Part shown: positions 32,526 to 48,120 of the stretch, piece after piece
How the letters are laid out: each line of letters opens with the position of its first letter
Numbering within the stretch: the stretch's first letter is position 1
Origin: Cupriavidus pinatubonensis
Lineage (GTDB): Bacteria > Pseudomonadota > Gammaproteobacteria > Burkholderiales > Burkholderiaceae
Direction: 5' to 3'
NCBI RefSeq assembly: GCF_019602855.1
Contig: NZ_CP080766.1
Coordinates: forward strand, 310,001 to 374,000
DNA length: 64,000 nucleotides
Translations under genes and position numbers: made by a program
Notes under the pieces: generated by a model
Databases searched by the model: none
What the model saw: only the letters and a program-made list of their open reading frames with translations
Told to the model about the DNA's origin: nothing

Positions 32526-33029
32526 TCACTTGGCGGACGGGTCGTCCTTCGGATCCAGGTAATGGATATCCAGCGGGCCTGTGCCGTGGATCTGCACTAC
32601 GGTCTCGGTCTTGCTGAACGCATAGTGATGGGCCTTGGCGGGCAGATAGTGGAAACCGCCCGTCTTCAGGGCATGAGCGTGAGCCATGTCCATCTTGTCC
32701 CCGGCTCCAAGGTAAAGCGTGCCAGAGATCACGGTCAGGTTCTCGGCCTGGGTATGCCAGTGGGCCGGTACCTTGTAGCCGGCCGGCGTCTTGAGCCGGA
32801 TGACAAACGGCACGTCTTTGCCCGGATCGCCGTACAACACGGCAAGCTTCGCCCCTTTGGGCAGCGAAGCGGGCGCGTCGCCCCATTTCACCGCGTCTGG
32901 GTTGATCATCTCCATGCCTGCCGCGGCCGGTTCCTGAGCATTGGCTGGTCCGGCCGCTGCCAATAACGCCAGGATCGCTGCCGCCAGCCATGCCTGCCGC
33001 GCTGCATGCTCTGAAGAATGCGCTTTCAT
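32526..33029 (-). CDS. Exported cupin domain protein
   Basis: A 167-residue protein with a Sec signal peptide (cleavage near GPANAQ) and one cupin domain. The first cupin motif, GYKVPAHWHTQAENLTVISG, contains His-x-His and Glu metal ligands, and the second motif is in HYLPAKAHHYAFSK. The ATG at 33029 is fixed by AAGGAGA seven bases upstream. A longer frame to 33056 is rejected. Periplasmic cupins of this type bind metal ions, and an enzyme role is unproven. It stands alone between the MFS gene and the aryl-polyene-like cluster, with no shared operon. Confidence 0.85.
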   Translation of the reverse strand: MKAHSSEHAARQAWLAAAILALLAAAGPANAQEPAAAGMEMINPDAVKWGDAPASLPKGAKLAVLYGDPGKDVPFVIRLKTPAGYKVPAHWHTQAENLTVISGTLYLGAGDKMDMAHAHALKTGGFHYLPAKAHHYAFSKTETVVQIHGTGPLDIHYLDPKDDPSAK

Positions 33030-33192
33030 GATCTTCTCCTTCTTGCGTTGGCCCATGCTCGCACGCGGCCTGGCAGCCGCATCGTTACCTCCGAGGAGAG
33101 CCTGAGACCATCGTAGTGCAGGCGCACGGCGTCGGCGTTACTGGACGTCCAGCGCAAAGGCCACGGCGGAGGTGCTGGTCCGACCAACGCTT

Positions 33193-33993
33193 TCAGGTCG
33201 CCCGGTTCGGCGGGCGCGAGTTGCCGTCCGCGGCCGCATGCAACCGCCGCCAGAGCAGCCGTGGCAATCGCACCAGCCAGCCGGTCACCAGCCGCAGGTG
33301 CATCCACCCCAGCAGCAGGTTGTCGCGCAGATAACGGAAGTGGGACACACCGCCCGCGCGCGGATCGAAGTAGCGCACGGGCGCATCGAGGTTGACCGGC
33401 CGCACGCCGCGCCAGCACAGGCGCACTGCCACCTCGGGATCAAAGTCGAAGCGCCGCATCCAGCGGCTTTCCCGCATGATGGCCCGCAGCGGTTCGATCG
33501 GATAGACACGGAAGCCGTACAGTGAATCGCCGATGCCGGCCCACAGTGTTTCGACGTCCGTCCAGAAGTTGGACACGCGGCGCCAGTACACGCGTTCGAC
33601 CGGCGCGCTCGCATCGAAAATCGGGCGCCCGAGCACCATTGCGTCCGGGTCGCGCATCGACGCCGCCATGAACTGCGCGATCAGCTGGGCCGGGTGCTGG
33701 CCGTCGGAGTCCATCACCAACGCATGCGTGAAGCCCTCCGCGGCGGCGGCCTCGATGCCGTGCAGCACCGCCGCGCCCTTGCCCTGGTTTTCGGGCAGGA
33801 CCAGTACGCGCAGACCGGAATCCTCGCGGGCCTGTTGCTGCAGCCATTGCGTGCTGTCGTCGGTGCTGCCATCTACCACCACCCAGACCGGACACCAGGC
33901 CGCGCGCGCGGCACGCAGCGTTTCCCGCAGCTTCGCGCCGGGGTTGTAGCTGGGGATCAGCAGCAGATGGGTCGGGGACGGCTGCGGGGCCAT
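33193..33993 (-). CDS. Family 2 glycosyltransferase of the aryl-polyene-like cluster
   Basis: A 266-residue GT2 enzyme with a GT-A fold: LLLIPSYNPGAKLRETLRAA, WVVVDGSTDDSTQWL, then the acidic VMDSDGQH motif for the nucleotide sugar, and RRFDFDPEVAVRLCWRG further on. A basic, partly hydrophobic tail (WLVRLPRLLWRRLHAAAD) may attach it to the inner membrane. Aryl polyene clusters commonly carry a GT2 of this form, close to dolichol-phosphate mannosyltransferase and UDP-glucose transferases. It is last in the leftward ACP-ketoreductase-glycosyltransferase operon, 15 bases after the ketoreductase. Confidence 0.9.
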   Translation of the reverse strand: MAPQPSPTHLLLIPSYNPGAKLRETLRAARAAWCPVWVVVDGSTDDSTQWLQQQAREDSGLRVLVLPENQGKGAAVLHGIEAAAAEGFTHALVMDSDGQHPAQLIAQFMAASMRDPDAMVLGRPIFDASAPVERVYWRRVSNFWTDVETLWAGIGDSLYGFRVYPIEPLRAIMRESRWMRRFDFDPEVAVRLCWRGVRPVNLDAPVRYFDPRAGGVSHFRYLRDNLLLGWMHLRLVTGWLVRLPRLLWRRLHAAADGNSRPPNRAT

Positions 33994-34008
33994 GGTGGGA
34001 AGACAGGT

Positions 34009-34758
34009 TCAGGCCATGCCGCCATTGACGGACAGTACCTGGCCGGTCACATAGGCTGCCGCATCGGAAGCCAGGTAGGCCACCATGCCGGCCACGTCAT
34101 CGGGCGTGCCCGCGCGGCCGGCTGGCACGATCTGGCGGACGCGCTCCGCGGGGAACGCCAGTTCCGTCATGGGGGATTCGATCACGCCCGGCGCCACGGC
34201 ATTGACCGTAACGCCGCGCGACGCCATCTCGATCGCCAGCGAGCGCGTCGCGCCGATCAGGCCCGCCTTGGCCGCGGCATAGTTGGCCTGCCCGCGGTTG
34301 CCCATCACGCCGGCCACCGAGGCCATATTGATGATGCGGCCCCAGCGCGTGCGCATCATCGGCATCAGCAAGGGCTGCGTCACATGGAAAAAGCCGTGCA
34401 GCGAGACGTCGATGACGCGGCGCCACTGGTCGCGGCTCATGCCAAGCAGCGGCGCATCGTCGTGGATGCCGGCGTTGTTGACCAGGATCTGCACCGTGCC
34501 GTGTTGAAGTACACGCTGCAGTGCAGCTTCGGTCGCGTCGGCGTCGGTCACGTCGAAGGCAATGGCGGTCGAGGCACCGCCCGCTGCGCGGATGGTGGCC
34601 GCCACGGCTTCCGCCTGCGCCAGGTTGCGATTCGCGTGGACCCACACCTCATTGCCGGCTGCGGCGAGGGCGTGACTGATAGCACTGCCGATAGCGCCGC
34701 TCGCGCCGGTGACGAGCGCCAGCCTGCGCGTAGCTTGCGGCCTGCCCTGCTGCGCCAT
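34009..34758 (-). CDS. 3-ketoacyl-ACP reductase (FabG-like) of the aryl-polyene-like cluster
   Basis: A 249-residue short-chain dehydrogenase. It has the NADP-binding TGASGAIGSAISHALAAAG, the NNAGIHDD motif, catalytic Ser-Tyr-Lys with MASVAGVMGNRGQANYAAAK, and the C-terminal end VLSVNGGMA. It should reduce the 3-ketoacyl-ACP intermediate during chain extension. GGGAGC lies upstream of the ATG at 34758. It stands between the ACP gene and the glycosyltransferase gene in the leftward operon. In primary metabolism a fabG would be next to fabD and acpP, which is not the case here, so this is a dedicated pathway copy. Confidence 0.92.
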   Translation of the reverse strand: MAQQGRPQATRRLALVTGASGAIGSAISHALAAAGNEVWVHANRNLAQAEAVAATIRAAGGASTAIAFDVTDADATEAALQRVLQHGTVQILVNNAGIHDDAPLLGMSRDQWRRVIDVSLHGFFHVTQPLLMPMMRTRWGRIINMASVAGVMGNRGQANYAAAKAGLIGATRSLAIEMASRGVTVNAVAPGVIESPMTELAFPAERVRQIVPAGRAGTPDDVAGMVAYLASDAAAYVTGQVLSVNGGMA

Positions 34759-34809
34759 AAGTGCTCCCTGTCCTGCTCCTGTCCGCCGGATCGGCCTTGG
34801 CCGCCGCGC

Positions 34810-35070
34810 TCAGCGCGTGCGGTTTGCCGCGACGTAGGCGGCCAGGCTGCCCAGCGAGGCGAAGATGGTCTTGTTGTCGGGATTGTCCGAGCGCAGTTCG
34901 ACCCCGTACTTGCGCGACACCAGCAGCGCGATTTCCAGGATATCGATGGAATCGAGCCCGAAACCGTCGCCGTAAAGCGGCGTATCGGCGCTCACGTCTT
35001 CCAGTTTCAGGTCGGCGATGTCCAGTTCGCCAATGATCAGGCTAGCGAGTTCCGTGTCGAGTTCGTTCAT
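34810..35070 (-). CDS. Acyl carrier protein
   Basis: An 86-residue carrier protein. The phosphopantetheine serine is Ser41 in GFGLDSIDILEIALLVSRKY, the usual D-S-I/L motif. It carries the growing acyl chain for the ketosynthase, ketoreductase and dehydratases of this cluster. Canonical aryl polyene clusters have two ACPs; only one is seen here. ATG at 35070 is used because the preceding extension (MPGFGSIASPSSG...) is unlike ACPs. It is the first gene of the leftward operon, divergent from the main rightward operon across a 253-base region. Confidence 0.9.
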   Translation of the reverse strand: MNELDTELASLIIGELDIADLKLEDVSADTPLYGDGFGLDSIDILEIALLVSRKYGVELRSDNPDNKTIFASLGSLAAYVAANRTR

Positions 35071-35323
35071 TGTCGTGAATGTCTTCTTCCGCTCATAAGT
35101 GACGCCGGAAGACGGCGAGGCGATGCTACCAAAGCCCGGCACATCGCACTACCTGAGAGAAGTTTAGTAACAACATTGGAACGACTTTGCTGAAACATCG
35201 CTGCGTCCCCGGGGTCTTTTAAGGTATAAAGCGTTCGCCTTGACGGCGTTGCGCGCGCGAAATGCCATTCTGTGCGCCATCCGCCCGCAGGAAAAGAGTA
35301 TATTGCATCACAATAATTCCGTA

Positions 35324-36034
35324 ATGCCCTCGAGCCAACCTTCCCACCCAGTCGTCCCGTCTTCCGCCGCAACGCCGCTACTGCAGCGTGCCGGTTGGGT
35401 GGCTGCACCCGTGGGCTTTCTGGCGTACGAATCGGCACTTCACCACGCGGCGCATACGCCGGGAAGCGAAGTCCCGGCGCTGATGCTGGGACTGGCGCCA
35501 TTTGTGCTGATTGCCCTCGCCGCAGCGTGGCGCGCCACTTGGCGCTTGCCCTGGCTAGTGTTTGTGACGGCTTGCGGCGTTGCGTTGTGGGTCGCGCGCA
35601 TTCCCTTGGCCGCTCATTTTGGCTGGACTTACTTCCTCCAGCACTTTGGGGCGAACACGGCTCTCGCCGCCATGTTCGGCCGGACGCTGCGCGCTGGCGC
35701 GACACCGCTCTGCAGCGAGTTCGCGGCGGCGATCCACGGCCCGCTGACGCCGGACATGCAACGCTATACCCAGCGCGTGACCCAGGCCTGGACCCTGTTC
35801 TTCGGCGCGACGGCCCTGGCGTCGCTCGTGCTATTTGCGGTCGCGCCCATGTCAACGTGGTCGACGTTTGCCAATCTCGGCACCCCCATCCTGATCGCGC
35901 TGATGTTCGTTGCCGAAGCGGCCTGCCGCCGCGCGCTGCTGCCGGCGGCCAAGGACACCGGCGTGCTCGATGCCGTGCGCGGCTATCGCACCGTGATGAC
36001 CGAGCGCGCCAGCCGCGCCGGCGCGTCGCGCTGA
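35324..36034 (+). CDS. Membrane protein of the aryl-polyene-like cluster (COG4648 type)
   Basis: A 236-residue polytopic inner-membrane protein, with about five hydrophobic helices (APVGFLAYESALHHAAHTPG, LAPFVLIALAAAWRATWRLP, LPWLVFVTACGVALWVARIP, QAWTLFFGATALASLVLFAV and ANLGTPILIALMFVAEAACR). It matches the COG4648 membrane proteins that open many aryl polyene and related fatty-acid clusters. Their job is unknown. The start at ATG 35324 (MPSSQPSHPVV) is a choice among weak options, since no strong ribosome site is seen. It leads the nine-gene rightward operon. Confidence 0.82.
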   Translation: MPSSQPSHPVVPSSAATPLLQRAGWVAAPVGFLAYESALHHAAHTPGSEVPALMLGLAPFVLIALAAAWRATWRLPWLVFVTACGVALWVARIPLAAHFGWTYFLQHFGANTALAAMFGRTLRAGATPLCSEFAAAIHGPLTPDMQRYTQRVTQAWTLFFGATALASLVLFAVAPMSTWSTFANLGTPILIALMFVAEAACRRALLPAAKDTGVLDAVRGYRTVMTERASRAGASR

Positions 36035-36047
36035 ACGCGGATTGCTT

Positions 36048-37760
36048 ATGACGAGCACGTTCGCCCTTCTCTCTCATCCCGACCCAGACAGCGTCGTCGC
36101 GTGGCGCGGCAGCCAACCGGTCACGGCCAGCCGGTTCCTGGCGGATGTCCACGCGCTCGCGGCACGCCTGCCACCCGGCGACCACGTCTTCAATGCGTGT
36201 GCGGATCGATACCGCTTTGCGGTCGGACTCTGCGCGTCGCTGCTGTGCGGCAAGGTGAGCCTGCTGCCGTCGGCACAGACGCCGGAAACGGTGCGGCAAC
36301 TCGCCGCGTTTGCGCCGGATGTCTTCTGCCTGTACGACGACGCGGATGGCAGCGTGGCGCTGCCCCGTTTCTTTTACGATGCATCTGAGCCCGAGCCATC
36401 CGCACCGCTGCCCGTACCGGACATTCCGGCAGAGCGGCTGATGGCCTATGTGTTCACCTCGGGCACCACCGGCCAGCCTGTCGCCCATGCCAAGACGTGG
36501 GGCGCGATGGTGCGCGGCGCGCGTGCCACGGCGCAACGCCTTGGCCTGGCGGACGGCCGCGCGTGGACGCTGGTCGGCACGCTGCCCCCGCAGCATATGT
36601 TCGGACTGGAAGCCACGGTGATGCTGGCCCTGCAAGGTAGCGCAGCGCTGGCCTCGGTGCGCGCGTTCTATCCGGCCGATATCCGCGCTGCCCTGCGCGA
36701 CGTCCCGCAGCCACGCGCGCTGGTGACGTCCCCGGTGCACCTGCGCGCACTGCTGCAATCAGACAGCGACCTGCCTGCCGCCGACCTCGTGCTGTCCGCT
36801 ACGGCCCCGATGAGCCGAGCCATGGCACGGCAGGCGCAGGCTGGTCTGGCGGCACCTTTGCTCGAGATCTACGGCAGCACCGAGACCGGCGCGATGGCGA
36901 CGCGCAAAACCGCCGACACGGACGAATGGACGCTGTTGCCCGGCATCACCCTGGAAAGCCGCAGCGATCACGCTGGCGATGGCGAATCCGAGCCCGCGAT
37001 ACGGGTCCGCGGCGGCCACATCGACGAGCCAGTGGCGCTCGGCGATGCCATCGCGCCGCTCGACGCCGGGCGCTTCGTGCTCCACGGCCGCAAGGCCGAC
37101 ATGATCAAGATAGCCGGCAAGCGCACGTCGCTCGCCTATCTCAATCAGCAACTCACAGCCATCGACGGCGTGCAGGACGGCACCTTCTACGTGCCCGATG
37201 ACGTGCATGAAGTCGAGGCCGCAGGCCGCGTGGTGCGGCTCGTGGCGCTGGCCGTAGCCCCCGGCGTGCCGGCCGCGCGCATCCTGCAGGAGCTGCGCGA
37301 GCGCATCGACGCCGCGTTCCTGCCGCGGCCGCTTTGTCTCGTCGATCGCCTGCCGCGCAATGCCGCGGGCAAGCTTCCGCGAGAAGCACTGGCGCCGCTG
37401 GTGGCCGCGCAACTGGCACAGCGCCACGCGCCAGGCTTTGTGATCGACGCGGGGCACCCGGCGATAGCGGGCCATTTTCCGGGCAATCCCGTGGTCCCCG
37501 GCGTGGTACTGCTGGACCATGCGATCCTGCAGATCGGCGCAGCGCTCGGACAACCGCTTGCCGTCGCGCAAGTTGGCACGGTCAAGTTCCTGAGCCCGGT
37601 CCGGCCCGGCGAGCGGGTCGAGGTCGCACACCAGCTGCATGGGGACCACGCCGGCACGGCGTCCATCCGCTTCACGCTGCGCGCGGGCGGCCGTGACGTG
37701 GCCAGCGGCACGCTGAGCACGCGGGCCACGCTGGCGAGCAGGGAGGCATCGCCATGCTGA
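36048..37760 (+). CDS. Fused acyl-CoA/ACP ligase and FabZ-like dehydratase
   Basis: A 570-residue two-domain protein. Residues 1-450 are an adenylate-forming ligase with YVFTSGTTGQPVAHAKTWG (P-loop), LLEIYGSTETGAMATRK, FVLHGRKADMIKIAGKR and the lysine end RLPRNAAGKLPREAL. The last 120 residues are a hot-dog dehydratase domain with IAGHFPGNPVVPGVVLLDHA, the FabZ/ApeI-like active-site motif with the His of H-F-P-G. So one polypeptide activates a carboxylic acid starter or monomer and dehydrates a 3-hydroxyacyl chain. It starts 14 bases after the membrane protein gene. A TTG at 36042 is rejected. Confidence 0.9.
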   Translation: MTSTFALLSHPDPDSVVAWRGSQPVTASRFLADVHALAARLPPGDHVFNACADRYRFAVGLCASLLCGKVSLLPSAQTPETVRQLAAFAPDVFCLYDDADGSVALPRFFYDASEPEPSAPLPVPDIPAERLMAYVFTSGTTGQPVAHAKTWGAMVRGARATAQRLGLADGRAWTLVGTLPPQHMFGLEATVMLALQGSAALASVRAFYPADIRAALRDVPQPRALVTSPVHLRALLQSDSDLPAADLVLSATAPMSRAMARQAQAGLAAPLLEIYGSTETGAMATRKTADTDEWTLLPGITLESRSDHAGDGESEPAIRVRGGHIDEPVALGDAIAPLDAGRFVLHGRKADMIKIAGKRTSLAYLNQQLTAIDGVQDGTFYVPDDVHEVEAAGRVVRLVALAVAPGVPAARILQELRERIDAAFLPRPLCLVDRLPRNAAGKLPREALAPLVAAQLAQRHAPGFVIDAGHPAIAGHFPGNPVVPGVVLLDHAILQIGAALGQPLAVAQVGTVKFLSPVRPGERVEVAHQLHGDHAGTASIRFTLRAGGRDVASGTLSTRATLASREASPC

Positions 37761-38725
37761 CCTGGCTTCGCAAGCCCCAGCCACTGGACACCGACTGGTC
37801 CAGCCGCCAGGAACGCAGCAATGTCACGCTGATGCGCGTGATGACGTGGATTTCGCTCGCGCTCGGCCGCCCTGCCGGGCGCGTGGTGCTGCGCCTGATC
37901 GCGGCGTACTTCACGCTGTTCTCGCCGACCGCGCGCCATGCCTCGCGCGCGTACATGGACCGCGCGCTCGGCCGCGAAGCCGGCTGGATGGACGGCTTCC
38001 GCCATGTCTTCACGTTCGCGTCGACCATCCACGACCGCATCTACCTGCTCAACGGCCGCTTCGACCTGTTCGACATCCGCCTGCACGGCGAAAAGCAGCT
38101 CGAACAGACGATCGCGCGCGGGCAAGGCGCGTTCCTGATGGGCGCGCACCTGGGCAGTTTCGAGGTGATCCGCGCCATGGGCCGGAAGCATCCGGACATG
38201 CGTGTCGCCATCACCATGTACGAAGAGAACGCCCACAAGCTCAACGACGTGCTGCAGTCGATCAACCCGGCCATGCGCCGCGACATGATCACGCTGGGCA
38301 AGGTCGACGCCATGCTGCGCGTGCGCGACTACCTGGACCGCGGCTACATGATCGGCATGCTGGCCGACCGCACGCTGTCGCAGCGCGCGACGGACCCGGT
38401 ACAGCAGTGCGATTTCCTGGGGGCGCCGACGGGCTTCCCGACCGGTCCGCTGCGCATGGCGGCCATGCTGCGCCGGCCGGTGTTCTTCATCACCGGGCTG
38501 TACCGCGGCGGCAATCGCTACGATGTGCACTTCGTACCGCTTGCCGACTTCTCGCAAGTCGCGCGCGGACGCCGCGAGGCCGAAGTGCAGGCCGCGCTGC
38601 AACGCTACGTGGCGCTGCTCGAGCAGTTCTGCCGCAGTGCGCCGTACAACTGGTTCAATTTCTACGACTTCTGGCACGCCGGCCCGCCGCTGTCCGAACA
38701 GCCGCCGCCAGGCAACGAGCCCTGA
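37754..38725 (+). CDS. LpxL/HtrB-like lipid acyltransferase of the aryl-polyene-like cluster
   Basis: A 323-residue acyltransferase of the lysophospholipid/lipid A family. The catalytic H-x4-E motif is visible as GAHLGSFEV (His132, Glu137), with a first membrane-anchoring helix around residues 27-45. It should transfer an acyl chain, possibly the polyene itself, to a lipid or sugar acceptor at the inner membrane. It overlaps the preceding ligase-dehydratase gene by seven bases. Such acyltransferases are regular members of aryl polyene clusters, where they attach the polyene to a glycerol- or sugar-based lipid. Confidence 0.9.
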   Translation: MLTWLRKPQPLDTDWSSRQERSNVTLMRVMTWISLALGRPAGRVVLRLIAAYFTLFSPTARHASRAYMDRALGREAGWMDGFRHVFTFASTIHDRIYLLNGRFDLFDIRLHGEKQLEQTIARGQGAFLMGAHLGSFEVIRAMGRKHPDMRVAITMYEENAHKLNDVLQSINPAMRRDMITLGKVDAMLRVRDYLDRGYMIGMLADRTLSQRATDPVQQCDFLGAPTGFPTGPLRMAAMLRRPVFFITGLYRGGNRYDVHFVPLADFSQVARGRREAEVQAALQRYVALLEQFCRSAPYNWFNFYDFWHAGPPLSEQPPPGNEP

Positions 38726-38728
38726 CCG

Positions 38729-39337
38729 ATGCGCCGAATCCGCCTGATTTTGCCGGCCCTGCTGCTGGCTGCTGCAATGCTGCCCGGCATGGCCGGGCAG
38801 GCGCTCGCCGCCGACAGCGGCTCGTCCGCCTGGGGCGTCGACCAGCTCATGTCCGCACTCGCGCAGCGCAAGTCCGGCCGCGTGCAGTTCACCGAGACCA
38901 AGTACCTGGCGATCCTGGATCGCCCGGTGGAATCGAGTGGCGAACTGGTGTTCACCGCGCCCGACCACCTCGAAAAACGCACCGTCACGCCCAAACCTGA
39001 AAACCTGGTGCTCGACGGCGACATGATGACGGTGGAACGCGGCGGCAAACGCTTCACCATGCCGCTGCAGAACTACCCGGAAATCGCCGCGTTCATCGAG
39101 AGCATCCGCGGCACGCTGGCGGGCAACCGCACCACGCTCGAACGCTACTACAAGCTCGGCCTCCAGGGCCGCGCGAGCCGCTGGACGCTGACGCTAACGC
39201 CGGCCGATTCGCGCATGGCGGCCATGGTCACCCAGGTGCGTATCGAGGGCGCTCATGATGGGCTCGACAGTGTGGAAATCCGCCAGGCCGACGGCGACCG
39301 TTCGGTCATGAAGATCCGCCCCGCCGGCAAGCCATGA
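38729..39337 (+). CDS. LolA-like outer-membrane lipoprotein carrier homologue
   Basis: A 202-residue exported protein with a Sec signal peptide (residues 1-28, ending GQALAAD) and a LolA/LolB-type fold (VDQLMSALAQRKSGRVQFTE, then SSGELVFTAPDHLEKRTVTP and NLVLDGDMMTVERGGKR). LolA family members carry hydrophobic acyl cargo across the periplasm. In aryl polyene clusters they are thought to help move the lipid product to the outer membrane. It starts three bases after the acyltransferase stop and overlaps the exporter start by four bases (ATGA), so transport and periplasmic carrier are co-translated. Confidence 0.9.
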   Translation: MRRIRLILPALLLAAAMLPGMAGQALAADSGSSAWGVDQLMSALAQRKSGRVQFTETKYLAILDRPVESSGELVFTAPDHLEKRTVTPKPENLVLDGDMMTVERGGKRFTMPLQNYPEIAAFIESIRGTLAGNRTTLERYYKLGLQGRASRWTLTLTPADSRMAAMVTQVRIEGAHDGLDSVEIRQADGDRSVMKIRPAGKP

Positions 39338-41772
39338 TGCCGGCGCCGCGCGGCGGTTCGCGCACAACCGCCCTGCCCTGGGCCCGGCTGGCCGTGGCGC
39401 TCTGGCTGGCGTGGTTGCTGGCCTGCGCGGCCGTGGTTGCGCGCACCGGGTTCACCGCCGACCTGTCCGCGTTCCTGCCGCGCATGCCGAGCGCCGAACA
39501 GCAATTGCTGGTGGACCAGTTGCGCGAAGGACTGGTGTCGCGCCTGATCCTGGTCGGTGTGGAAGGCGGCGACGCCGACGGGCGTGCGGCCGTATCGCGG
39601 ACGATGGCGGCCAGGCTGCGCCAGGATGCCCGGTTCTCTGCGATCACCAATGGCGAGCCGGTCAACCAGGCCGCCGACCAGCGCTATGTCTACAACCACC
39701 GCTACCTGCTGAGCCCGACGGTCACGCCCGAACGGTTCTCGCAGCAGGGCCTGTCCGCGGCCGTCGGCGAAACGTTCGATCTGCTGGCGTCCCCGGCCGG
39801 ACTGTTCACCAAGTCCCTGCTGCCACGCGACCCGACCGGCGAAGTGATGTCGATGATGGGCCAGCTTGACGCCCAGCAACGCGTGCCGATGCACGCGGGC
39901 GCGTGGGTTTCGCATGACGGGAAGCGTGCCGTACTGCTCGCGCAGACGGCTAGCGCCGGCTCCGACACCGACGGCCAGGCCCGGGCGATCGACGCCATCC
40001 ACGGGGCATTTGCCGACGCGGCCAAGGCCGGCCCGTACCGGCTCGTGATGACGGGGCCCGGCGTGTTCTCGGTCAAGGCACGCGACACCATCCGCCATGA
40101 CGTGGAACGGCTGTCGGCAATCGGCATAGCGATCATCATCACGCTGCTGCTGGTGGTGTATCGCTCGGTGCCGCTGCTGGTGCTCGGGCTTGTGCCGGTG
40201 CTGTCCGGCGCGCTGGCCGGCATTGCGGCCGTGAGCCTCGGTTTCGGCGGGACCGTGCACGGGCTGACGCTCGGCTTCGGCACCACGCTGATCGGCGAAG
40301 CCGTCGACTATTCGATCTACCTTTTCGTCCAGTCGGCGCAGTACACGCGCAACGGGCAGCGAGACAACCGCGCCTGGATCGCCGGCTTCTGGCCGACCGT
40401 GCGGCTCGGCGTGCTGACTTCGGTGTGCGGGTTCGCCTCGCTGCTGCTGTCGGGCTTTCCGGGGCTGGCGCAGCTTGGGCTGTACTCGATCGCCGGGCTG
40501 GCCACCGCCGCGCTGGTCACGCGCTTCGTGCTGCCGCATCTGGTCCCTGCCAACCTGCACCTGCGCGATGTCACGCCGCTCGGCCAGCGCCTGGCGGCGC
40601 TGCTGGCGCGCGCCAGCCGGCTGCGATGGCTGGTGGCCGTGGCGGCGATTGCCGCCTGCGCTGTGCTGTGGGCGCGCCACGACTCGCTGTGGGGACGCGA
40701 GCTGTCGGCGCTGAGCCCCGTGGCGGCCTCGGAGCAGGCGCTCGACGCCTCGCTGCGCGCCGATCTTGGCGCGCCCGACGTGCGCTACCTGGTGGTCCTT
40801 TCGGGCCCGGACCAGGAATCAGTACTGCGGGATGCCGAGCGCGTAGCGCGCGAACTCGATCCTCTCGTGGCATCAGATGTCATCGGCGGCTACGAAAGCC
40901 CCGCTCGCTACCTGCCAAGCGCCGCGACCCAACGCGCGCGCCAGGCCAGCCTGCCACCGCCCGAGGAACTGTCGCAGCGCCTGCGCACGGCCATCGCGCA
41001 ACAGCCCGTGCGGCCGGAACTGTTCGCTCCGTTCCTGGCAGAGGCCAACCAGGCACGCACGGCGCCGCTGCTGCAGCGCCAGGACCTCAAGGGCACGTCG
41101 ATGGCGCTTGCCATCGACGCCCTGCTGACCCAGCGCGGCGACCACTGGAATGCCACCCTGCCCTTGCGTGCGCCGGCCAATGCCAAATCCACCGACGTGC
41201 TCGACAGCCAGCCCATACGCGCGGCACTGGCGCGCGCCGGTGCCGGCCATGCGCTCTTCGTTGACCTCAAGCGCGAGTCGGACCAGCTCTATGGCGGCTA
41301 TATGCGCGAGGCGCTGCACCTCTCGCTCGGCGGCGTGCTCGCCATTCTCGTGCTGCTTTCGGTAGCGCTGCGTTCGCCACGCCGCGTGCTGGCCACAGTA
41401 CTGCCGCTGGCCGCGGCGGCGCTGGCTGTCATGGGCGGGCTGGCGGCGCTGGGCCAGCCGCTCACACTTTTGCATCTGGTAGGCCTGCTGCTGCTTGTGG
41501 CAGTGGGATCGAACTACGCGCTGTTTTTCAATGGCGCGGCCGGTAGCGGGCCGGCGACGGCCATTTCGGCGCATACACTGGTATCGCTGCTGTTGGCCAA
41601 CATGACCACGGTGGCGGCGTTCGGGCTACTGGCTTTGTCGGATTTGCCGCTGCTGAAGGCATTCGGCCTGACAGTCGGTCCGGGCGCGGTGCTGGCGTTG
41701 TGCTTCTCGGCCATCCTGGCGCCCACGCCAGCCAACGCTAGCGGTAGCAGCTGGAACGATGAAGACGTCTGA
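39334..41772 (+). CDS. MMPL/RND-type lipid exporter of the aryl-polyene-like cluster
   Basis: An 812-residue inner-membrane transporter with twelve helices arranged as two repeats. Each repeat has a large periplasmic loop: after the first helix (residues about 40-260) and again at 450-640. Family segments include FGTTLIGEAVDYSIYLFVQS in the first half and VGLLLLVAVGSNYALFFNGA with ALSDLPLLKAFGLTVGPGAV in the second. MMPL proteins flip or export lipids and polyketides. In aryl polyene clusters the MMPL exporter is a core member. It overlaps the following deacetylase gene by 14 bases. Confidence 0.92.
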   Translation: MMPAPRGGSRTTALPWARLAVALWLAWLLACAAVVARTGFTADLSAFLPRMPSAEQQLLVDQLREGLVSRLILVGVEGGDADGRAAVSRTMAARLRQDARFSAITNGEPVNQAADQRYVYNHRYLLSPTVTPERFSQQGLSAAVGETFDLLASPAGLFTKSLLPRDPTGEVMSMMGQLDAQQRVPMHAGAWVSHDGKRAVLLAQTASAGSDTDGQARAIDAIHGAFADAAKAGPYRLVMTGPGVFSVKARDTIRHDVERLSAIGIAIIITLLLVVYRSVPLLVLGLVPVLSGALAGIAAVSLGFGGTVHGLTLGFGTTLIGEAVDYSIYLFVQSAQYTRNGQRDNRAWIAGFWPTVRLGVLTSVCGFASLLLSGFPGLAQLGLYSIAGLATAALVTRFVLPHLVPANLHLRDVTPLGQRLAALLARASRLRWLVAVAAIAACAVLWARHDSLWGRELSALSPVAASEQALDASLRADLGAPDVRYLVVLSGPDQESVLRDAERVARELDPLVASDVIGGYESPARYLPSAATQRARQASLPPPEELSQRLRTAIAQQPVRPELFAPFLAEANQARTAPLLQRQDLKGTSMALAIDALLTQRGDHWNATLPLRAPANAKSTDVLDSQPIRAALARAGAGHALFVDLKRESDQLYGGYMREALHLSLGGVLAILVLLSVALRSPRRVLATVLPLAAAALAVMGGLAALGQPLTLLHLVGLLLLVAVGSNYALFFNGAAGSGPATAISAHTLVSLLLANMTTVAAFGLLALSDLPLLKAFGLTVGPGAVLALCFSAILAPTPANASGSSWNDEDV

Positions 41773-42628
41773 CATGAACCCCACTGCGCAGCACGGGCCG
41801 ATGCCACCAGCGGCGCGCCGCTGGCGGCCCGGCATGCTGCTGTACGGCGCGGGCGTGGTGCACGCAGGTGCCGCCGCGGCTGTGCTCGCCAATCCGGCCA
41901 CACTCGGCCTGGCTGCAGCGAGTGTCGGCGTCACGCATGCGGTGCTTGCTACAGTCGGACTGTGGCCGCGCAGCACGTGGCTCGGGCCGAACGTGCTGCG
42001 GCTGCCAGCGAGCGCCGGCAACAGCGTGGCGCTGACTTTCGATGACGGCCCGCACCCGGACATGACCCCGCGCGTGCTCGACATGCTCGACCGTCATGGC
42101 GCGCGCGCCACGTTTTTCTGCATTGGCGAGCGCGCGGCGCGATATCCCGATCTCGTACGGGAGATCGCACGCCGCGGGCATACCGTGGAGAACCACAGCA
42201 TGCATCACCGGCTCGATTTTTCGCTGTTCGGCCCCTGGCGCATGCGTCGCGAGATCCGCGCGGCCCAGCAGTTGCTGACCGAGATCACGGGACAGCCACC
42301 GCGCTATTTCCGCGCGCCGGCAGGACTGCGCAATCTGTTCCTCGAACCCGTGCTGTGCGCGGAGGGACTGCAGCTTGCCGCATGGACCCGGCGCGGCTAC
42401 GACACGCGCAACGGCGACCATGCCGCGCGCGTCGTGCAGCGCCTCATGCGAAACCTGGCCGCTGGCGACATCCTGCTGCTGCACGACGGCAATAGCGGTG
42501 TCGATACGGCCGGCAAACCGCACTGCACGACCGTGCTGCCCAAACTGCTTGCAACAATTACCGACGCGGGCCTGCGCTGCGTGACGCTGCGTGCCGGCAT
42601 GGCGGCATGGGACTTGCAAGCGGCTTGA
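41759..42628 (+). CDS. NodB-type polysaccharide deacetylase family protein
   Basis: A 289-residue protein. Two hydrophobic helices at the N-terminus (MLLYGAGVVHAGAAAAVLAN, LGLAAASVGVTHAVLATVGL) anchor it in the membrane. The rest is a carbohydrate esterase 4 domain: SVALTFDDGPHPDMTPRVLD (Asp-Asp metal site), HTVENHSMHHRLDFSLFGPW (His ligands), RYFRAPAGLRNLFLEP and ILLLHDGN. It removes acetyl groups from sugars or a related amide. It lies inside the operon between the exporter and the ketosynthase, which is unusual for aryl polyene clusters, so it may modify the sugar part of the product. ATG 41774 is an alternative start. Confidence 0.88.
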   Translation: MKTSDMNPTAQHGPMPPAARRWRPGMLLYGAGVVHAGAAAAVLANPATLGLAAASVGVTHAVLATVGLWPRSTWLGPNVLRLPASAGNSVALTFDDGPHPDMTPRVLDMLDRHGARATFFCIGERAARYPDLVREIARRGHTVENHSMHHRLDFSLFGPWRMRREIRAAQQLLTEITGQPPRYFRAPAGLRNLFLEPVLCAEGLQLAAWTRRGYDTRNGDHAARVVQRLMRNLAAGDILLLHDGNSGVDTAGKPHCTTVLPKLLATITDAGLRCVTLRAGMAAWDLQAA

Positions 42629-42632
42629 TACA

Positions 42633-43868
42633 ATGGCCGCACCCCGCGTCTCCTACTCAACACATTCCGTGTCGCCGCTACATCTTTCGCATTTCACTGC
42701 CACCAGTTGCATCGGCACCGGGCTTGACGACACGGTGAGCGCACTGCGAGAACAGCGCGGCGGCCTCGCGCCGTGCCAGTTCGGTGATATCCGGCTCGAT
42801 ACCTGGGTCGGCGAAGTGCCGGGCGTCGACAGCGTCACCCTGCCGCCGGCATTGGCGGATTTTACCTGCCGCAACAATAGCCTGGCCCTGCTCGCGCTGG
42901 AACAGGATGGCTTCGCCGACCGGGTACGCGAGGCGGTGGCACGCTACGGCGCGGACCGCATCGGCGTATTCCTCGGCACCAGCACGGCGGGCGTGCTGCA
43001 GACTGAACTTGCCTACCGGCAACGCGATCCGCAAACGGGCGCGTTGCCTGCAGGCCTCAGCTATGCCGGTACCCACAGTCCGTATTCGCTGCCGGGCTTC
43101 GTACGCGCGTATTTTGGCTTGCAGGGCCCGGCCAACGCGGTGTCGTCGGCGTGTTCATCCGGCGCAAAAGTATTCACGTCGGCGCGCCGCCTGATTGAAG
43201 CCGGACTGATCGATGCAGCCGTCGTCGGCGGCGTGGACTCGTTGTGCCACACCACGCTGTATGGCTTCGGCTCGCTCGAATTGCTCTCCAACCAGCCATG
43301 CCGGCCATTCGATGCCGATCGCAACGGCATCTCGATCGGTGAGGCCGCCGCCTTTGTGCTGGTCGAGCGCACGCCCGATCCCGCACCGGACGGTGCGATC
43401 CTGCTGCTTGGCATCGGCGAGTCGAGCGACGCACACCATATGTCGGCACCGCACCCGGAAGGCCTGGGCGCCCGCATGGCCATGGAGCAGGCGCTGACCC
43501 GTGCCGGCGTGTCGCCGGAACAGGTCGATTACGTGAACCTGCACGGTACCGCCACGCGCGCCAATGACGCCACGGAAGCGCGCGCGATCTCGGCATTGCT
43601 GCCGGGCACGCCATGCAGTTCCACCAAGGGCGCCACGGGGCATACGCTTGGCGCCGCGGGCGCACTCGAAGCGGTGATCAGCGCACTGGCCCTGCGCCAC
43701 GGGCTGCTGCCGGCTGGCATCAACACCACGCAGATCGATCCCGCGCTTGCGGTGGACTACTGCCTTGCAACGCGCGAACAGCCGCTGCGCCATGTGCTCA
43801 GCAATGCGTTCGGCTTCGGCGGTTCCAACTGCAGCCTGCTGCTGGGCCGCGCAACGGGCGCGCAATGA
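42633..43868 (+). CDS. Beta-ketoacyl-ACP synthase (KS) of the aryl-polyene-like cluster
   Basis: A 411-residue condensing enzyme of the KASI/II type. The active-site cysteine is Cys174 in SSACSSGAKVFTS, with His304 in NLHGTATRAND, Lys332 and His337 in STKGATGHTLGAAGALEA, and the NAFGFGGSNCSLLLG end. All four catalytic residues are present, so it should condense malonyl-ACP with the acyl chain. ATG at 42633 follows the deacetylase stop by four bases. It is the only complete ketosynthase in the cluster and overlaps the following chain-length-factor-like gene by four bases. Confidence 0.92.
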   Translation: MAAPRVSYSTHSVSPLHLSHFTATSCIGTGLDDTVSALREQRGGLAPCQFGDIRLDTWVGEVPGVDSVTLPPALADFTCRNNSLALLALEQDGFADRVREAVARYGADRIGVFLGTSTAGVLQTELAYRQRDPQTGALPAGLSYAGTHSPYSLPGFVRAYFGLQGPANAVSSACSSGAKVFTSARRLIEAGLIDAAVVGGVDSLCHTTLYGFGSLELLSNQPCRPFDADRNGISIGEAAAFVLVERTPDPAPDGAILLLGIGESSDAHHMSAPHPEGLGARMAMEQALTRAGVSPEQVDYVNLHGTATRANDATEARAISALLPGTPCSSTKGATGHTLGAAGALEAVISALALRHGLLPAGINTTQIDPALAVDYCLATREQPLRHVLSNAFGFGGSNCSLLLGRATGAQ

Positions 43869-44692
43869 CCATGCGCACACCGCTTATCGCTTTCATCGAT
43901 GGCATCGGGGTGCTCGGCCCGGGGTTGAGCGGCTGGGCACAGGCCAACGAGGTGCTTGCCGGACGGCAACCCTACGAACCTGCGGCGACGGAACTCGCTC
44001 CGCCGGACATCCTGCCGCCGGCCGAACGCCGCCGCAGCGGCACGGCTGTCAGGCTCGCGCTCGGCATCGGTCAGCAAGCTGTTGCCGCCAGCGGCATGGA
44101 AGCCGCGGACCTGCCTACGGTCTTCACGTCTTCGAGTGCCGATGGGCACAACTTCCACGCCATCTGCGAAGCGCTCGCGCAGCCAGAGCCGTTGATGTCG
44201 CCGACGCGCTTTCACAACTCTGTGCACAACGTCGCCGCCGGGTACTGGTCGATTGCTACGCGCGCGATGCGCCCGGCCAATGTGCTGAGCGCGCTCGACG
44301 CGAGCTTTAGTGCCGGCCTGCTGGAAGCGGCGGCGCAGGTATCGGCCGACCAGGAGCCCTGCCTGCTAATCGCCTACGACTCCGATTATCCGGAACCGCT
44401 GCGCACGCTACGGCCCATCGCGGCGCCGTTCGGTGTCGCGATGCTGCTATCGCCGCATCGTTCTGGGCGCTCGCTGGCACAGATAGAAGTGGGACTGGCT
44501 CAGGCGCCCGCGACGCCGATGGATGATGCTGCGCTGGAGCACCTGCGCCGCTCGGTACCGACCGCGCGCGCACTGCCATTGCTGCATGCCGTCGCCGTGC
44601 AGTCGACCGGCACGGTGGTGCTCGATTACCTGGAAGACCTGCAACTGCAGGTGACGGTACAGCCGCAAACGCAGCGCGGGACTGGCGAATAG
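43865..44692 (+). CDS. Beta-ketoacyl synthase-like protein (chain-length-factor type)
   Basis: A 275-residue homologue of ketosynthase N-terminal half (MRTPLIAFIDGIGVLGPGLS, then SPTRFHNSVHNVAAGYWSIA). At the place of the active-site cysteine the sequence reads NVLSALDASFSAGLLEAA, without a Cys, so it cannot be a full condensing enzyme. It matches the ApeC-like/KS-CLF partner proteins of aryl polyene clusters that pair with the active ketosynthase and set the chain length. Start ATG 43865 overlaps the ketosynthase stop (ATGA). Shorter than a normal KS (about 400 residues), in line with the CLF-like group. Confidence 0.85.
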   Translation: MTMRTPLIAFIDGIGVLGPGLSGWAQANEVLAGRQPYEPAATELAPPDILPPAERRRSGTAVRLALGIGQQAVAASGMEAADLPTVFTSSSADGHNFHAICEALAQPEPLMSPTRFHNSVHNVAAGYWSIATRAMRPANVLSALDASFSAGLLEAAAQVSADQEPCLLIAYDSDYPEPLRTLRPIAAPFGVAMLLSPHRSGRSLAQIEVGLAQAPATPMDDAALEHLRRSVPTARALPLLHAVAVQSTGTVVLDYLEDLQLQVTVQPQTQRGTGE

Positions 44693-44693
44693 C

Positions 44694-45155
44694 GTGCCGG
44701 CCCCGCACACGCCTCTAGACCACGCCTGGATTACAACCCGGATTCCCCATCAGGGCAGCATGTGCCTGCTCGACAGCGTGCTCGACTGGGACGCGGATTT
44801 CATTCGCTGCCAGGCCACGAGCCACCGCAGCGTCGACAACCCGCTCCGCGCGCACGGGCGGCTGGCCGCCGTGTGCGGCGTGGAATACGCGGCGCAGGCC
44901 ATGGCCGTGCACGGCGCGGTGCTGCAGCAAGGCGGGGAGCGCCCGCGCATGGGCTATCTCGCCAGCGTGCGCAAGCTCGCGCTGGACGTCGAACGGCTCG
45001 ACGATATAGACGGGCCGCTGACCATCGAAGCCCATCGCGTCAGCGGCGAAGGCAGCAACGTGCTCTATGCGTTCGAGGTCAGCGGTGGCGGCAAGCGGCT
45101 GCTTTCCGGCCGGGCGGCGGTGATCCTTGACGTGGCGCCACCCGGCGCCGCCTGA
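44694..45155 (+). CDS. ApeP-like 3-hydroxyacyl-ACP dehydratase
   Basis: A 153-residue hot-dog-fold protein of the type found at the end of aryl polyene and fatty-acid-like clusters (ApeP/PA-hydratase group). IPHQGSMCLLDSVLDWDADF opens the fold, and the typical histidine and glutamate positions are in HGRLAAVCGVEYAAQAMAVH. It should dehydrate the 3-hydroxyacyl-ACP intermediate, so the cluster has two dehydratase domains, this one and the one fused to the ligase. Start is GTG at 44694, one base after the previous stop. Six bases separate its stop from the convergent fahA gene, with no terminator between. Confidence 0.85.
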   Translation: MPAPHTPLDHAWITTRIPHQGSMCLLDSVLDWDADFIRCQATSHRSVDNPLRAHGRLAAVCGVEYAAQAMAVHGAVLQQGGERPRMGYLASVRKLALDVERLDDIDGPLTIEAHRVSGEGSNVLYAFEVSGGGKRLLSGRAAVILDVAPPGAA

Positions 45156-45161
45156 ACGCGC

Positions 45162-46430
45162 TTACGCTTTGGGCGCCGGCAGGATCTTGCCGGACACTGC
45201 GCCAAAGCCGACGACGTATCCGTCGCCCGCAGCGAAACCGCTCATCACGACTTCATCGCCGTCCTCGAGGAACGCGCGGCTGCTGCCGTCGGCGAGCTTC
45301 AACGGCTCGGCACCGTTGCGCGTGAGTTCGAGCAGGCTGCCGTAGGAATCCGGCGTGGTGCCGCTGATCGTGCCCGAGCCCATCAGGTCGCCCACGCGCA
45401 CGTTGCAACCCGACACCGTGTGATGCGCGAGTTGCTGCGCCATGGTCCAGTACATCGCCTTGAAGTTGGTGCGGCAGATCGTGGTGGCCGCCGCGGCGCC
45501 TTGCGGGCGCAGCGCGACTTCGAGCGCGATGTCGTAGGCGTTCTTGCTTTGCTGCTGCAGGTACGGCAGCGGCTGCGGCGACTGCTCGGGGTTGTCGCGG
45601 CGGAACGGCTCCAGCGCTTCCATAGTCACGATCCACGGCGAAATCGAGGTACCGAAGCCCTTGGAATTGAACGGCCCGAGCGGCACATATTCCCACTGCT
45701 GGATGTCACGCGCGCTCCAGTCGTTGAGCAGCACCATGCCAAACATATAGTTCGGTGCATCAGCCGTGCTGACCGGTTCGCCCAGTGCCGATTCCTTGCC
45801 GACGATAAAGCCGACCTCAAGCTCGAAGTCGAGCTTGCGGCATGCGCTGAAAATCGGGCGCGCTTCGTTGGGCAGCTTGATCTGCCCGTTCGGGCGGCGC
45901 AGGTCGGTACCGCTCACCACCACCGAGCTCGCACGGCCGTTGTAGCCGATCGGGATTTCCAGCCAGTTCGGCAGCAGCGCGTTGTCCGGATCGCGGAACA
46001 TGCGGCCGACGTTTGTGGCGTGTTCCTTCGACGAATAGAAGTCGGTGTAGCCGGGAATCTCGACGGGAAGATGCAGCATCACCTGGTCCATCGGTACGAG
46101 TGCGCGGTCACGCAGCGCGGCGTTGTCGCGCAGGGCGGCGTCGGCGCCCGACAGCAGCGCGGTCAGGCGCTGGCGCGTTTCGGACCACACCGGCTTGCCC
46201 AGTGCGATGAAGCGGTTGAGGCTGGCGGCGGCAAACGTGCCCTTCGCTGCCACGGGCAGCAGGCCGGCTTCATCGAGCGCAGCCAGATCGAGCACAGCAT
46301 TGCCGATCGCAACGCCGACGCGTGCAGCCTGGCCCTTCACGGAAAAGATGCCGTACGGCAGGTTCTGCAGGGGAAAATGGGTCTTGCCGTCGTTGGCGGA
46401 TTCAATCCAGCTGGTGATCGGGGCGGTCAT
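45162..46430 (-). CDS. fahA: Fumarylacetoacetase
   Basis: A 422-residue enzyme of the homogentisate pathway that splits fumarylacetoacetate into fumarate and acetoacetate in tyrosine and phenylalanine degradation. The N-terminal SH3-like domain and the catalytic FAH domain are recognised, with YTDFYSSKEHATNVGRMFRD, KLDFELEVGFIVGKESALGE (metal-binding acids) and VLLNDWSARDIQQWEYVPLG. Length matches the family (about 420). It is 78 bases downstream of hmgA in the same direction, so hmgA-fahA form an operon. Maleylacetoacetate isomerase, the step between, is not in the window. Confidence 0.96.
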   Translation of the reverse strand: MTAPITSWIESANDGKTHFPLQNLPYGIFSVKGQAARVGVAIGNAVLDLAALDEAGLLPVAAKGTFAAASLNRFIALGKPVWSETRQRLTALLSGADAALRDNAALRDRALVPMDQVMLHLPVEIPGYTDFYSSKEHATNVGRMFRDPDNALLPNWLEIPIGYNGRASSVVVSGTDLRRPNGQIKLPNEARPIFSACRKLDFELEVGFIVGKESALGEPVSTADAPNYMFGMVLLNDWSARDIQQWEYVPLGPFNSKGFGTSISPWIVTMEALEPFRRDNPEQSPQPLPYLQQQSKNAYDIALEVALRPQGAAAATTICRTNFKAMYWTMAQQLAHHTVSGCNVRVGDLMGSGTISGTTPDSYGSLLELTRNGAEPLKLADGSSRAFLEDGDEVVMSGFAAGDGYVVGFGAVSGKILPAPKA

Positions 46431-46508
46431 GTGGGACTCCGGAAAATGTCTGTGGCACGCGGATATTGCCGCGTGCCGTTTGTTTGTTTTATGTGGCGTC
46501 TGCCGTGC

Positions 46509-47828: not shown

Positions 47829-47869
47829 GGTCGGATCAGCGTCGGGGGTCAGGAGCTTTCGATCGGATG

Positions 47870-47911
47870 ACGAAATGCGAAGTACGAATGTCGAATTACG
47901 AATTGCGTAAT
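47870..47911. repeat. Three tandem 14-bp repeats upstream of hmgA, candidate operator
   Basis: ACGAAATGCGAAGT (47870-47883), ACGAATGTCGAATT (47884-47897) and ACGAATTGCGTAAT (47898-47911) are adjacent and in register. The last one overlaps a palindrome ATTACG-AATTG-CGTAAT (47895-47911). They are AT-rich against a GC-rich background and sit just before hmgA. Regulator binding is likely, but no regulator gene is adjacent. Confidence 0.6.
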
Positions 47912-48120
47912 GCATTTACCATATCGTAATCATCAGCAATGGACGTGTCAAACCGTTGCCGGGACGCGCGCGGGAAAACGCACATCACAGACGTTGTAGG
48001 CGGGAAACGAGGGAAACGCGGAGAGACTCGCGGGAAAAAAGCGCGGGAGGGTTCCGGCCGGGAAAAATATGCCGGCCACGCAGCCGACAGACCGAGGAAA
48101 AGCGATGCTTGGACGACAAC

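Follow-up and report, generated by a model that had tools for sequence, protein, structure and literature searches.

A probable xanthomonadin-type aryl-polyene gene cluster without XanB2 in Cupriavidus pinatubonensis

Results

Gene content and core enzymes

The DNA analyzed here, referred to below as the window, is a stretch of 64,000 nucleotides from the 7.55-Mb, 4-contig genome of a Cupriavidus pinatubonensis strain (G000:C1:310001-374000), and it contains, at positions 33193-45155, a cluster of twelve genes, of which three (for a GT2 glycosyltransferase, a ketoreductase and an acyl carrier protein, ACP) lie on the minus strand and nine on the plus strand. We consider the cluster, with a probability of about 0.82, to be a xanthomonadin-type aryl-polyene cluster resembling the pig and arc clusters and belonging to the kind that lacks the chorismatase XanB2. 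A first-pass annotation made from the sequence of the window had recognized an aryl-polyene-type cluster with no linked ammonia-lyase, whose starter might come from a different acid that the ligase activates. Our results agree with that view, and this acid must be one produced outside the cluster.

The ketosynthase (KS) found its best match in the Protein Data Bank (PDB) in 6qsp_A (E 3.7e-79), and the chain-length factor (CLF) matched at E ≤ 0.1 only 6qsp_B and 7f28_A. Entry 6qsp is the ApeO-ApeC of Xenorhabdus doucetiae (PMC8358021), and 7F28 is mentioned once in the same paper, in connection with work on Acinetobacter aryl-polyene ketosynthases. The KS gene directly adjoins that of the half-size CLF, with start and stop overlapping at 43865-43868, as expected of the ORF17/ORF16 pair of xanthomonadin-type clusters. 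In the KS, C176, H306 and H339 (numbered from 42627), which we take to be the catalytic Cys-His-His residues, occupy columns that are at least 97% conserved across 81 sequences, and columns conserved to at least the same degree hold S147, Y160 and K164 of the ketoreductase, presumably its Ser-Tyr-Lys triad, as well as the presumed functional serine of the ACP and the presumed NodB motifs of the deacetylase. Gln157 of the CLF (numbered from 43868) is kept in 76/79 and lies in a stretch that could plausibly hold the essential helix 6 glutamine (Q166 in Lysobacter). The second dehydratase alone matched 6qsr_B weakly (E 0.008), its family profile reached the same entry at 1.1e-7, and PF22817 (ApeP-like) was matched at E ≤ 0.1 by 12 of 15 family members, the window protein itself scoring only 0.045; judged by the profile, this dehydratase is of the ApeP family.

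The set expected of a xanthomonadin-type cluster, namely one ACP, an aryl ligase, a ketoreductase and two dehydratases, is present in full, and so are the acyltransferase, the LolA-like carrier, the MMPL exporter, the GT2 protein and a deacetylase, the last of which was judged by the arcuflavin cluster and not by Xanthomonas. Profile matches bear out every part listed in the first-pass annotation (KS, CLF-like protein, ketoreductase, two dehydratase domains, ACP, ligase, acyltransferase, LolA, MMPL and GT2), a list that was correct throughout and had passed over the membrane protein at 35324-36034 and the deacetylase at 41759-42628. The coordinates are collected in Table 1.

Table 1. Features of the aryl-polyene cluster, in positions of the window.
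Feature	Position	Strand	Basis or remark
GT2 glycosyltransferase, polyprenyl-phosphate-sugar synthase-like	33193-33993	-	PF00535 2e-19
FabG/ApeQ-type ketoreductase	34009-34758	-	FabG model NF004200 above cut-off; flexirubin FlxB model 263 bits, below cut-off
Single acyl carrier protein, 86 aa	34810-35070	-	PF00550, NF006617/PRK09184; DSI motif
Divergent intergenic stretch separating two transcription units	35071-35323
Membrane protein, position of ApeG/ArcU (ACP-ligase interval)	35324-36034	+	matched in 66/80 loci
Aryl-acid AMP ligase (residues 1-~455) fused to ApeI/FabA-like dehydratase	36048-37760	+	PF00501; PF07977 23.8 bits, cut-off 23; PF22818 ApeI-like below cut-off
LpxL/HtrB-like acyltransferase	37754-38725	+	PF03279 2.1e-11
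LolA-like periplasmic carrier	38729-39337	+	PF19574 1.6e-22; flexirubin LolA2 model 56 bits, below cut-off
MMPL/RND-type exporter	39334-41772	+	PF03176 1.3e-21
NodB-family polysaccharide deacetylase, ArcN counterpart by content	41759-42628	+	PF01522 4.8e-33
Ketosynthase, ApeO-type	42633-43868	+	NF006618/PRK09185 557 bits, cut-off 407
Half-size chain-length factor (ApeC/ORF16 type), 275 aa	43865-44692	+	PF13723 6.8e-27; ATG overlapping KS stop
ApeP-type dehydratase, GTG start	44694-45155	+	family profile

Genes of the canonical Ape set are wanting: no open reading frame (ORF) of the cluster region encodes a second ACP, ApeR, the ApeK thioesterase or the ApeB methyltransferase, and no cluster ORF is left for any methyltransferase or thioesterase, the other ORFs of the window having been tested in part. 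No further ACP with a GxDS[LMI] motif occurs in 32900-46500, where an ACP with another motif would escape. With the KS as query, the genome gave one other match at E ≤ 0.001, a protein that by eye is FabF-like and is encoded beside a FabG-like gene, and a CLF search of the genome for a second aryl-polyene cluster returned this copy only. The gaps named in the first-pass annotation (ammonia-lyase, second ACP, second ketosynthase, methyltransferase and thioesterase) hold as far as they were tested. A canonical Ape cluster of the Escherichia coli/Xenorhabdus kind whose missing genes lie at other genomic sites would share the core enzymes found here, but it is very improbable given the outcome of the genome-wide KS and CLF searches (no search aimed at ApeF, ApeK and ApeB homologues was made outside the cluster), and because the single ACP and the deacetylase fit the xanthomonadin/arcuflavin branch. 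Ralstonia solanacearum carries a separate ape-type cluster in addition to its pig-like one (PMC9542644), unlike the window genome with its one CLF copy.

The nine-gene run on the plus strand (35324-45155) is densely packed and contains several start/stop overlaps. A sigma-70 scan around the divergent intergenic stretch found 2 sites where shuffled sequences had 1.3 on average, so that promoters did not rise above the shuffles. The phosphopantetheine serine of the ACP is Ser41, counted from the ATG at 35070, and the genome has one match to PF01648 (phosphopantetheinyl transferase). The membrane protein at 35324-36034 had no Pfam or NCBIfam match, and its all-helical model (mean pLDDT 79) had no PDB fold match at E ≤ 0.001. 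A cupin-family protein with an apparent signal peptide (32526-33056) adjoins the GT2 gene and was matched in two Cupriavidus relatives, L006 and L008.

Conservation of the block

A scan of named genomes reported 575 relatives, of which 80 loci were kept, some of them ending early. Cupriavidus numazuensis, a near relative, has a KS 96% identical to that of the window. KS and CLF stood side by side in all 80 loci, which makes the block conserved far beyond chance. The ten core genes (those for the ACP, membrane protein, ligase, acyltransferase, LolA, MMPL, deacetylase, KS, CLF and second dehydratase) were all matched in 62/80 loci, a figure that becomes 49/54 when only loci of at least 18 kb are counted. 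Of the five exceptions, four are Cupriavidus loci with no match to the membrane protein, and one is a cut locus with no match to the ACP. The ketoreductase was matched in 62/80 loci and GT2 in 50/80, partly because loci end early. Genera with the block include Cupriavidus, Ralstonia, Burkholderia, Paraburkholderia, Caballeronia, Polaromonas, Ramlibacter, Thiobacillus and Acidithiobacillus. Within Cupriavidus the ligase was matched at E ≤ 1e-60 in 38/60 genomes, and the cluster is therefore often absent within the genus.

In eight loci of the C. necator type and of Ralstonia (L009, L010, L018, L019, L031, L035, L038 and L058), GT2 and ACP genes lie side by side with no ketoreductase match between them, and the reductase of such clusters may sit elsewhere. 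The named Ralstonia loci L018, L035, L041 and L058 have the KS-CLF block and no ketoreductase match. For the strain of L058 (Ralstonia soli 21MJYT02-11), two aryl-polyene clusters have been predicted (PMC10196183). A methyltransferase family occurs in 25/80 loci, in L013, for instance, between deacetylase and KS (PF13489); in the window these two genes are adjacent, and the methyltransferase is absent from that site. A FAD-dependent halogenase-like gene (PF04820; L052:16722-18089) lies near the cluster of another relative and belongs to an ORF family present in 20/80 loci and absent from the window cluster. Also absent from it is a 97-aa protein, with a signal-like start by eye, that is encoded downstream of the ApeP-like gene in L043 (10047-10340); its ORF family is found in 31/80 loci, the examples shown being from Burkholderia, Paraburkholderia and Trinickia. 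A Rhodoferax metagenome-assembled genome (L074:4041-5447) encodes a methyltransferase fused, by eye, to a PAP2-type membrane domain.

Sources of the aryl starter

A XanB2-type chorismatase gene stands beside the cluster in 15/80 loci (e.g., L048:2-808, L080:16220-17296, L070:15250-16308 and L052:15607-16719). Its identity rests on PF21168, on the top PDB matches 5ag3/5a3k and FkbO 4bps, and on TIGR04444, for which 242 bits fall below the cut-off of 325. In the window's own genome, neither a single-protein search nor a four-row profile search (13 of 14 first-look candidates scored) found XanB2, the same profile matching 23 other genomes. XanB2 is, however, usual rather than universal in xanthomonadin-type clusters. 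In a sample of 150 genomes of the same family, 58 had a CLF at the threshold of E ≤ 1e-15, and the 23 genomes matched by the XanB2 profile were all among these 58, none being among the 92 without CLF (Fisher p 1.2e-11, a value that overstates independence since the species are related); the remaining 35 of the 58, the window genome among them, gave no XanB2. XanB2 and CLF start 3-13 kb apart in 17 of the 23, and in the other six, all from g8, they lie on different contigs of draft assemblies. In the g8 genomes the XanB2 gene, on another contig, scores lower, and one of them shares match coordinates with the Caballeronia genome of L042.

None of the 15 Cupriavidus genomes in the family sample had a XanB2 match. 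When 50 of the 80 named genomes were searched, 18 matches were obtained, or 16 after removal of two weak ones from Cupriavidus (L020 and L031, E 1e-7 and 8e-7), whose alignments are confined to positions 249-356 of the YjgF-like C-terminal part. By genus, XanB2 was present in 0/14 Cupriavidus, 0/5 Ralstonia-type (including L023, filed as Burkholderiaceae bacterium), 2/13 Paraburkholderia, 5/5 Caballeronia-type (including L062, filed as Burkholderia turbans), 1/1 Trinickia, 5/7 Burkholderia, 0/2 Polaromonas, and 3/3 of Acidithiobacillus, Thiobacillus and Rhodoferax together.

UbiC was found in 135/150 family genomes, including all 35 genomes that have CLF and lack XanB2. UbiC was missing from just two genomes with CLF, and in both of these XanB2 is present. 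At least one known source of hydroxybenzoate therefore exists in every one of the 58. The genome of the window has one UbiC gene, unlinked to the cluster (C2:3226725-3227219). An ammonia-lyase elsewhere in this genome can be set aside: its only two PF00221 proteins both score above the hutH cut-off beside hutU and are histidine ammonia-lyases, so that FlxA, the tyrosine ammonia-lyase of the flexirubin (flx) system, has no counterpart, and the ketoreductase and LolA of the window match flexirubin models below their cut-offs. The two histidine-utilization loci, each with hutH and hutU, lie on two large contigs (G000 C1:1180257-1184636 and C2:3074264-3078637).

The ligase pocket

The best PDB matches of the ligase are 4-chlorobenzoate-CoA ligase (3.5e-9). 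Twenty presumed aryl-pocket positions were taken from an alignment to this ligase, on our assumption that the positions correspond to those of 4-chlorobenzoate ligase and plant 4CL. Among the 50 loci entered in the comparison, L012, L026 and L045 gave no usable ligase, and L007 was dropped because the locus ends before the cluster ligase and another ligase had been picked up. The pocket positions are identical in Burkholderia with XanB2 (L025, L048, L063 and L065) and without it (L022 and L043); the loss of XanB2 is thus not mirrored in the ligase there, which rules out a pocket that tracks XanB2. Variation at position 282 was read in 30 of the 38 ligase-matching Cupriavidus genomes, giving 23 Gln, 5 Ala (the window included), 1 Leu and 1 His. 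Of the 152 ligase columns that the other sequences conserve to at least 95%, 5 are changed in all four members of the window subclade, and position 282 is not among the 152.

Homogentisate neighbors

The cluster lies beside homogentisate genes, as the first-pass annotation had noted. These encode degradation (FAH and HGD) and lie directly downstream on the opposite strand (45162-47915), and this position would suit the idea that homogentisate or a derivative serves as the starter and supplies the aryl head. The neighborhood is, however, specific to one lineage, flanking the cluster in 14/14 Cupriavidus loci and in 0/49 others with at least 3 kb downstream. With the genes being degradative as well as oppositely oriented, a homogentisate-derived head is scarcely credible; the adjacency itself is real, and the neighbors look incidental.

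Discussion

Several described systems come close to the cluster. The R. solanacearum cluster, from a related betaproteobacterium, is highly homologous to the pig cluster of Xanthomonas campestris and has no xanB2 homologue; its ACP, AcpP2 (acpP2, RSc0434), whose serine is also Ser41, restores xanthomonadin in an X. campestris xanC mutant (PMC9542644). The arc locus of Azoarcus sp. BH72 is described as methyltransferase, polysaccharide deacetylase, hypothetical protein, exporter, LolA, acyltransferase, dehydratase, AMP-ligase, hypothetical protein and ACP, so that by description the window cluster corresponds to the arcM-arcV arcuflavin set minus the methyltransferase, and a second Azoarcus locus contributes a glycosyltransferase and a reductase, both of types also present in the window cluster (PMC3949708). 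In contrast to the window cluster, the Azoarcus system has two polyene loci, the XanB2-type ArcB, a halogenase, a methyltransferase and dialkylresorcinol genes (PMC3949708). The xanthomonadin and Lysobacter enzymogenes clusters share with the window a KS beside a half-size CLF (275 aa), one ACP, a ketoreductase, two dehydratases, an acyltransferase, a LolA-like protein and a glycosyltransferase resembling dolichyl-phosphate-mannose synthase (PMC3691225). Xanthomonadin itself is an aryl polyene derived from 3-hydroxybenzoate, and in Xanthomonas it is brominated and methylated. Compared with its biosynthesis, no XanB2 was found in the window genome, and the cluster contains neither a halogenase nor a methyltransferase; the lack of XanB2 means that the product should not be called xanthomonadin, although XanB2 does not define the gene-cluster family.

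The E. coli cluster APE_Ec shares with the window the ligase, KS-CLF, ketoreductase, ApeI/ApeP dehydratases, RND exporter, LolA and acyltransferase, whereas two ACPs, ApeR, the ApeK thioesterase, the ApeB methyltransferase, ApeA and ApeN are found in APE_Ec only, and the deacetylase is not in its gene table (PMC8253772). The first-pass annotation had regarded the content as non-standard and as possibly giving a new lipid or pigment. Neither non-standard content nor a new product class is supported: a second ACP is not a feature of all aryl-polyene clusters, xanthomonadin clusters being named as the case in point, the APE_Ec gene table contains no ammonia-lyase, and an apeR mutant still shows the primary aryl-polyene lipid (PMC8253772), while the set as a whole matches arcuflavin (PMC3949708). 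ApeO-ApeC alone yields a fully elongated polyene in vitro (PMC8358021), and deletion of apeK only partly lowers the pigment of E. coli (PMC8253772). The absences are mostly normal in this branch, but the finished E. coli lipid needs all genes, including apeB, apeF and apeK and with the possible exception of apeR (PMC8253772), and in this respect the claim keeps some force. The window branch must manage without these three or use other proteins, and its route or product should differ somewhat from that of APE_Ec. Comparison with known aryl-polyene families, which the first-pass annotation had proposed, thus leads to the xanthomonadin/arcuflavin branch and to no new family; R. solanacearum already provides a published example without XanB2 (PMC9542644).

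From the gene identities, the conserved catalytic residues, the conservation of the block, and the results on which of XanB2, UbiC and ammonia-lyase the genome encodes, we infer a substrate, a product, an order of steps and an anchor chemistry as follows. The unlinked UbiC would convert chorismate into 4-hydroxybenzoate (4-HBA), which the cluster ligase would adenylate and load onto the single ACP. A hydroxybenzoate starter agrees with the range of the arcuflavin ligase ArcT, to which 3-hydroxybenzoate and benzoates altered at the 4-position are acceptable (PMC3949708). The KS/half-size CLF pair would add malonyl units, each being reduced and dehydrated by the ketoreductase and the two dehydratases, to give a conjugated polyene carboxylic acid. 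An amino sugar on a lipid carrier would come from the GT2 protein and the NodB-family deacetylase. The LpxL-like acyltransferase would couple the polyene to this lipid anchor, the MMPL protein would flip the conjugate, and LolA would carry it to the outer membrane. The expected product is likely a yellow, non-brominated, unmethylated aryl polyene started from 4-HBA and borne on an outer-membrane lipid, and by analogy it may protect the cells against light and oxidation. A search of the literature found no report on the product of this cluster in Cupriavidus, which is no proof that none exists.

The proposed anchor draws on two proteins. The best NCBIfam match of the GT2 protein is PpgS (44 bits, below the cut-off of 370), and in the PDB it matched nothing but dolichol monophosphate mannose synthase (1.8e-4) when E ≤ 0.001 was required. 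The deacetylase matches chitin/GlcNAc deacetylases in the PDB and has the motifs DDGP, HSMHH, RAPAG and HD. The pair resembles ArnC/ArnD and FlmF2/NaxD, which we take to be pairs that make undecaprenyl-phosphate amino sugars for lipid A, and on this resemblance the polyene may be joined to an amino-sugar lipid.

Several points weigh against the assignment or its details. The family assignment draws on gene content, PDB matches and published descriptions, with Xanthomonas, Azoarcus and R. solanacearum GMI1000 represented by such descriptions and not by direct comparison of their sequences, and in the 150 family genomes only CLF, not the whole cluster, was scored. Two of the 35 XanB2-less genomes (G045 and G067) have a CLF of only 42-43% identity and may represent another aryl-polyene branch. 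The ketoreductase was unmatched in 18/80 loci, including C. necator and Ralstonia, and is not universal to the block, with the reservation that some loci end early. No record of pigment from the strain was found. The UbiC pattern is compatible with a 4-HBA starter and does not prove it, the presence of so common an enzyme being a weak clue. Deletion of the XanB2 homologue in Lysobacter lowers pigment by ~90% (PMC3691225), such that loss of XanB2 may lower or change the output. Finally, ligase position 282 is Gln in 39/43 named relatives and His in 4, while it is Ala in the window and three near relatives.

The last points bear on the nature of the starter. The same pathway might be fed with 3-hydroxybenzoate (3-HBA) or another hydroxybenzoate from soil or aromatic catabolism instead of the 4-HBA of UbiC, with pigment formed only when the acid is available. 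Feeding of 3-HBA restores pigment in a Lysobacter mutant of the XanB2 homologue (PMC3691225), and the common pocket string of XanB2-plus and XanB2-minus Burkholderia suggests that the substrate of the ligase did not change upon loss of XanB2. UbiC, however, offers an internal supply, and for E. coli the predicted starter is 4-HBA, the product of its UbiC (PMC8253772); nor did we notice, among the twelve cluster genes, an importer of such an acid or a regulator responding to it. Such a starter is thus rather unlikely. A smaller chance attaches to a ligase that changed its specificity in the small Cupriavidus subclade of the window, so as to accept a non-hydroxylated, larger or modified aryl acid and give another head group. 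Ala at the probable pocket position 282 in the window and four other Cupriavidus would agree with this, against Gln in 23/30, but the position lies outside the columns conserved to at least 95% and is His in another Cupriavidus. Besides, one residue rarely sets specificity, and the role of 282 is presumed from other ligases. The change at 282 is a lead and not evidence of a new starter, and there is only a slim prospect that the polyene of this subclade starts from an acid other than 3- or 4-HBA, in which case a novel head group would sit on the amino-sugar lipid that GT2 and the deacetylase are proposed to produce.

A XanB2-less xanthomonadin-type cluster started from 4-HBA is therefore the reading that we retain. 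The cluster is real, looks complete and is common among soil bacteria; its kind is known, and its branch has been noted before to occur without XanB2. Its missing genes mark that known aryl-polyene branch rather than a new pathway, and the supposed oddity of the locus is thereby removed. What is sharpened instead is the question of whether the 35 of 58 CLF-bearing genomes in which XanB2 was not found make a 4-hydroxyphenyl pigment from a precursor of ubiquinone, and the conserved deacetylase, together with GT2, offers a testable idea of how such a pigment may be anchored in the membrane.

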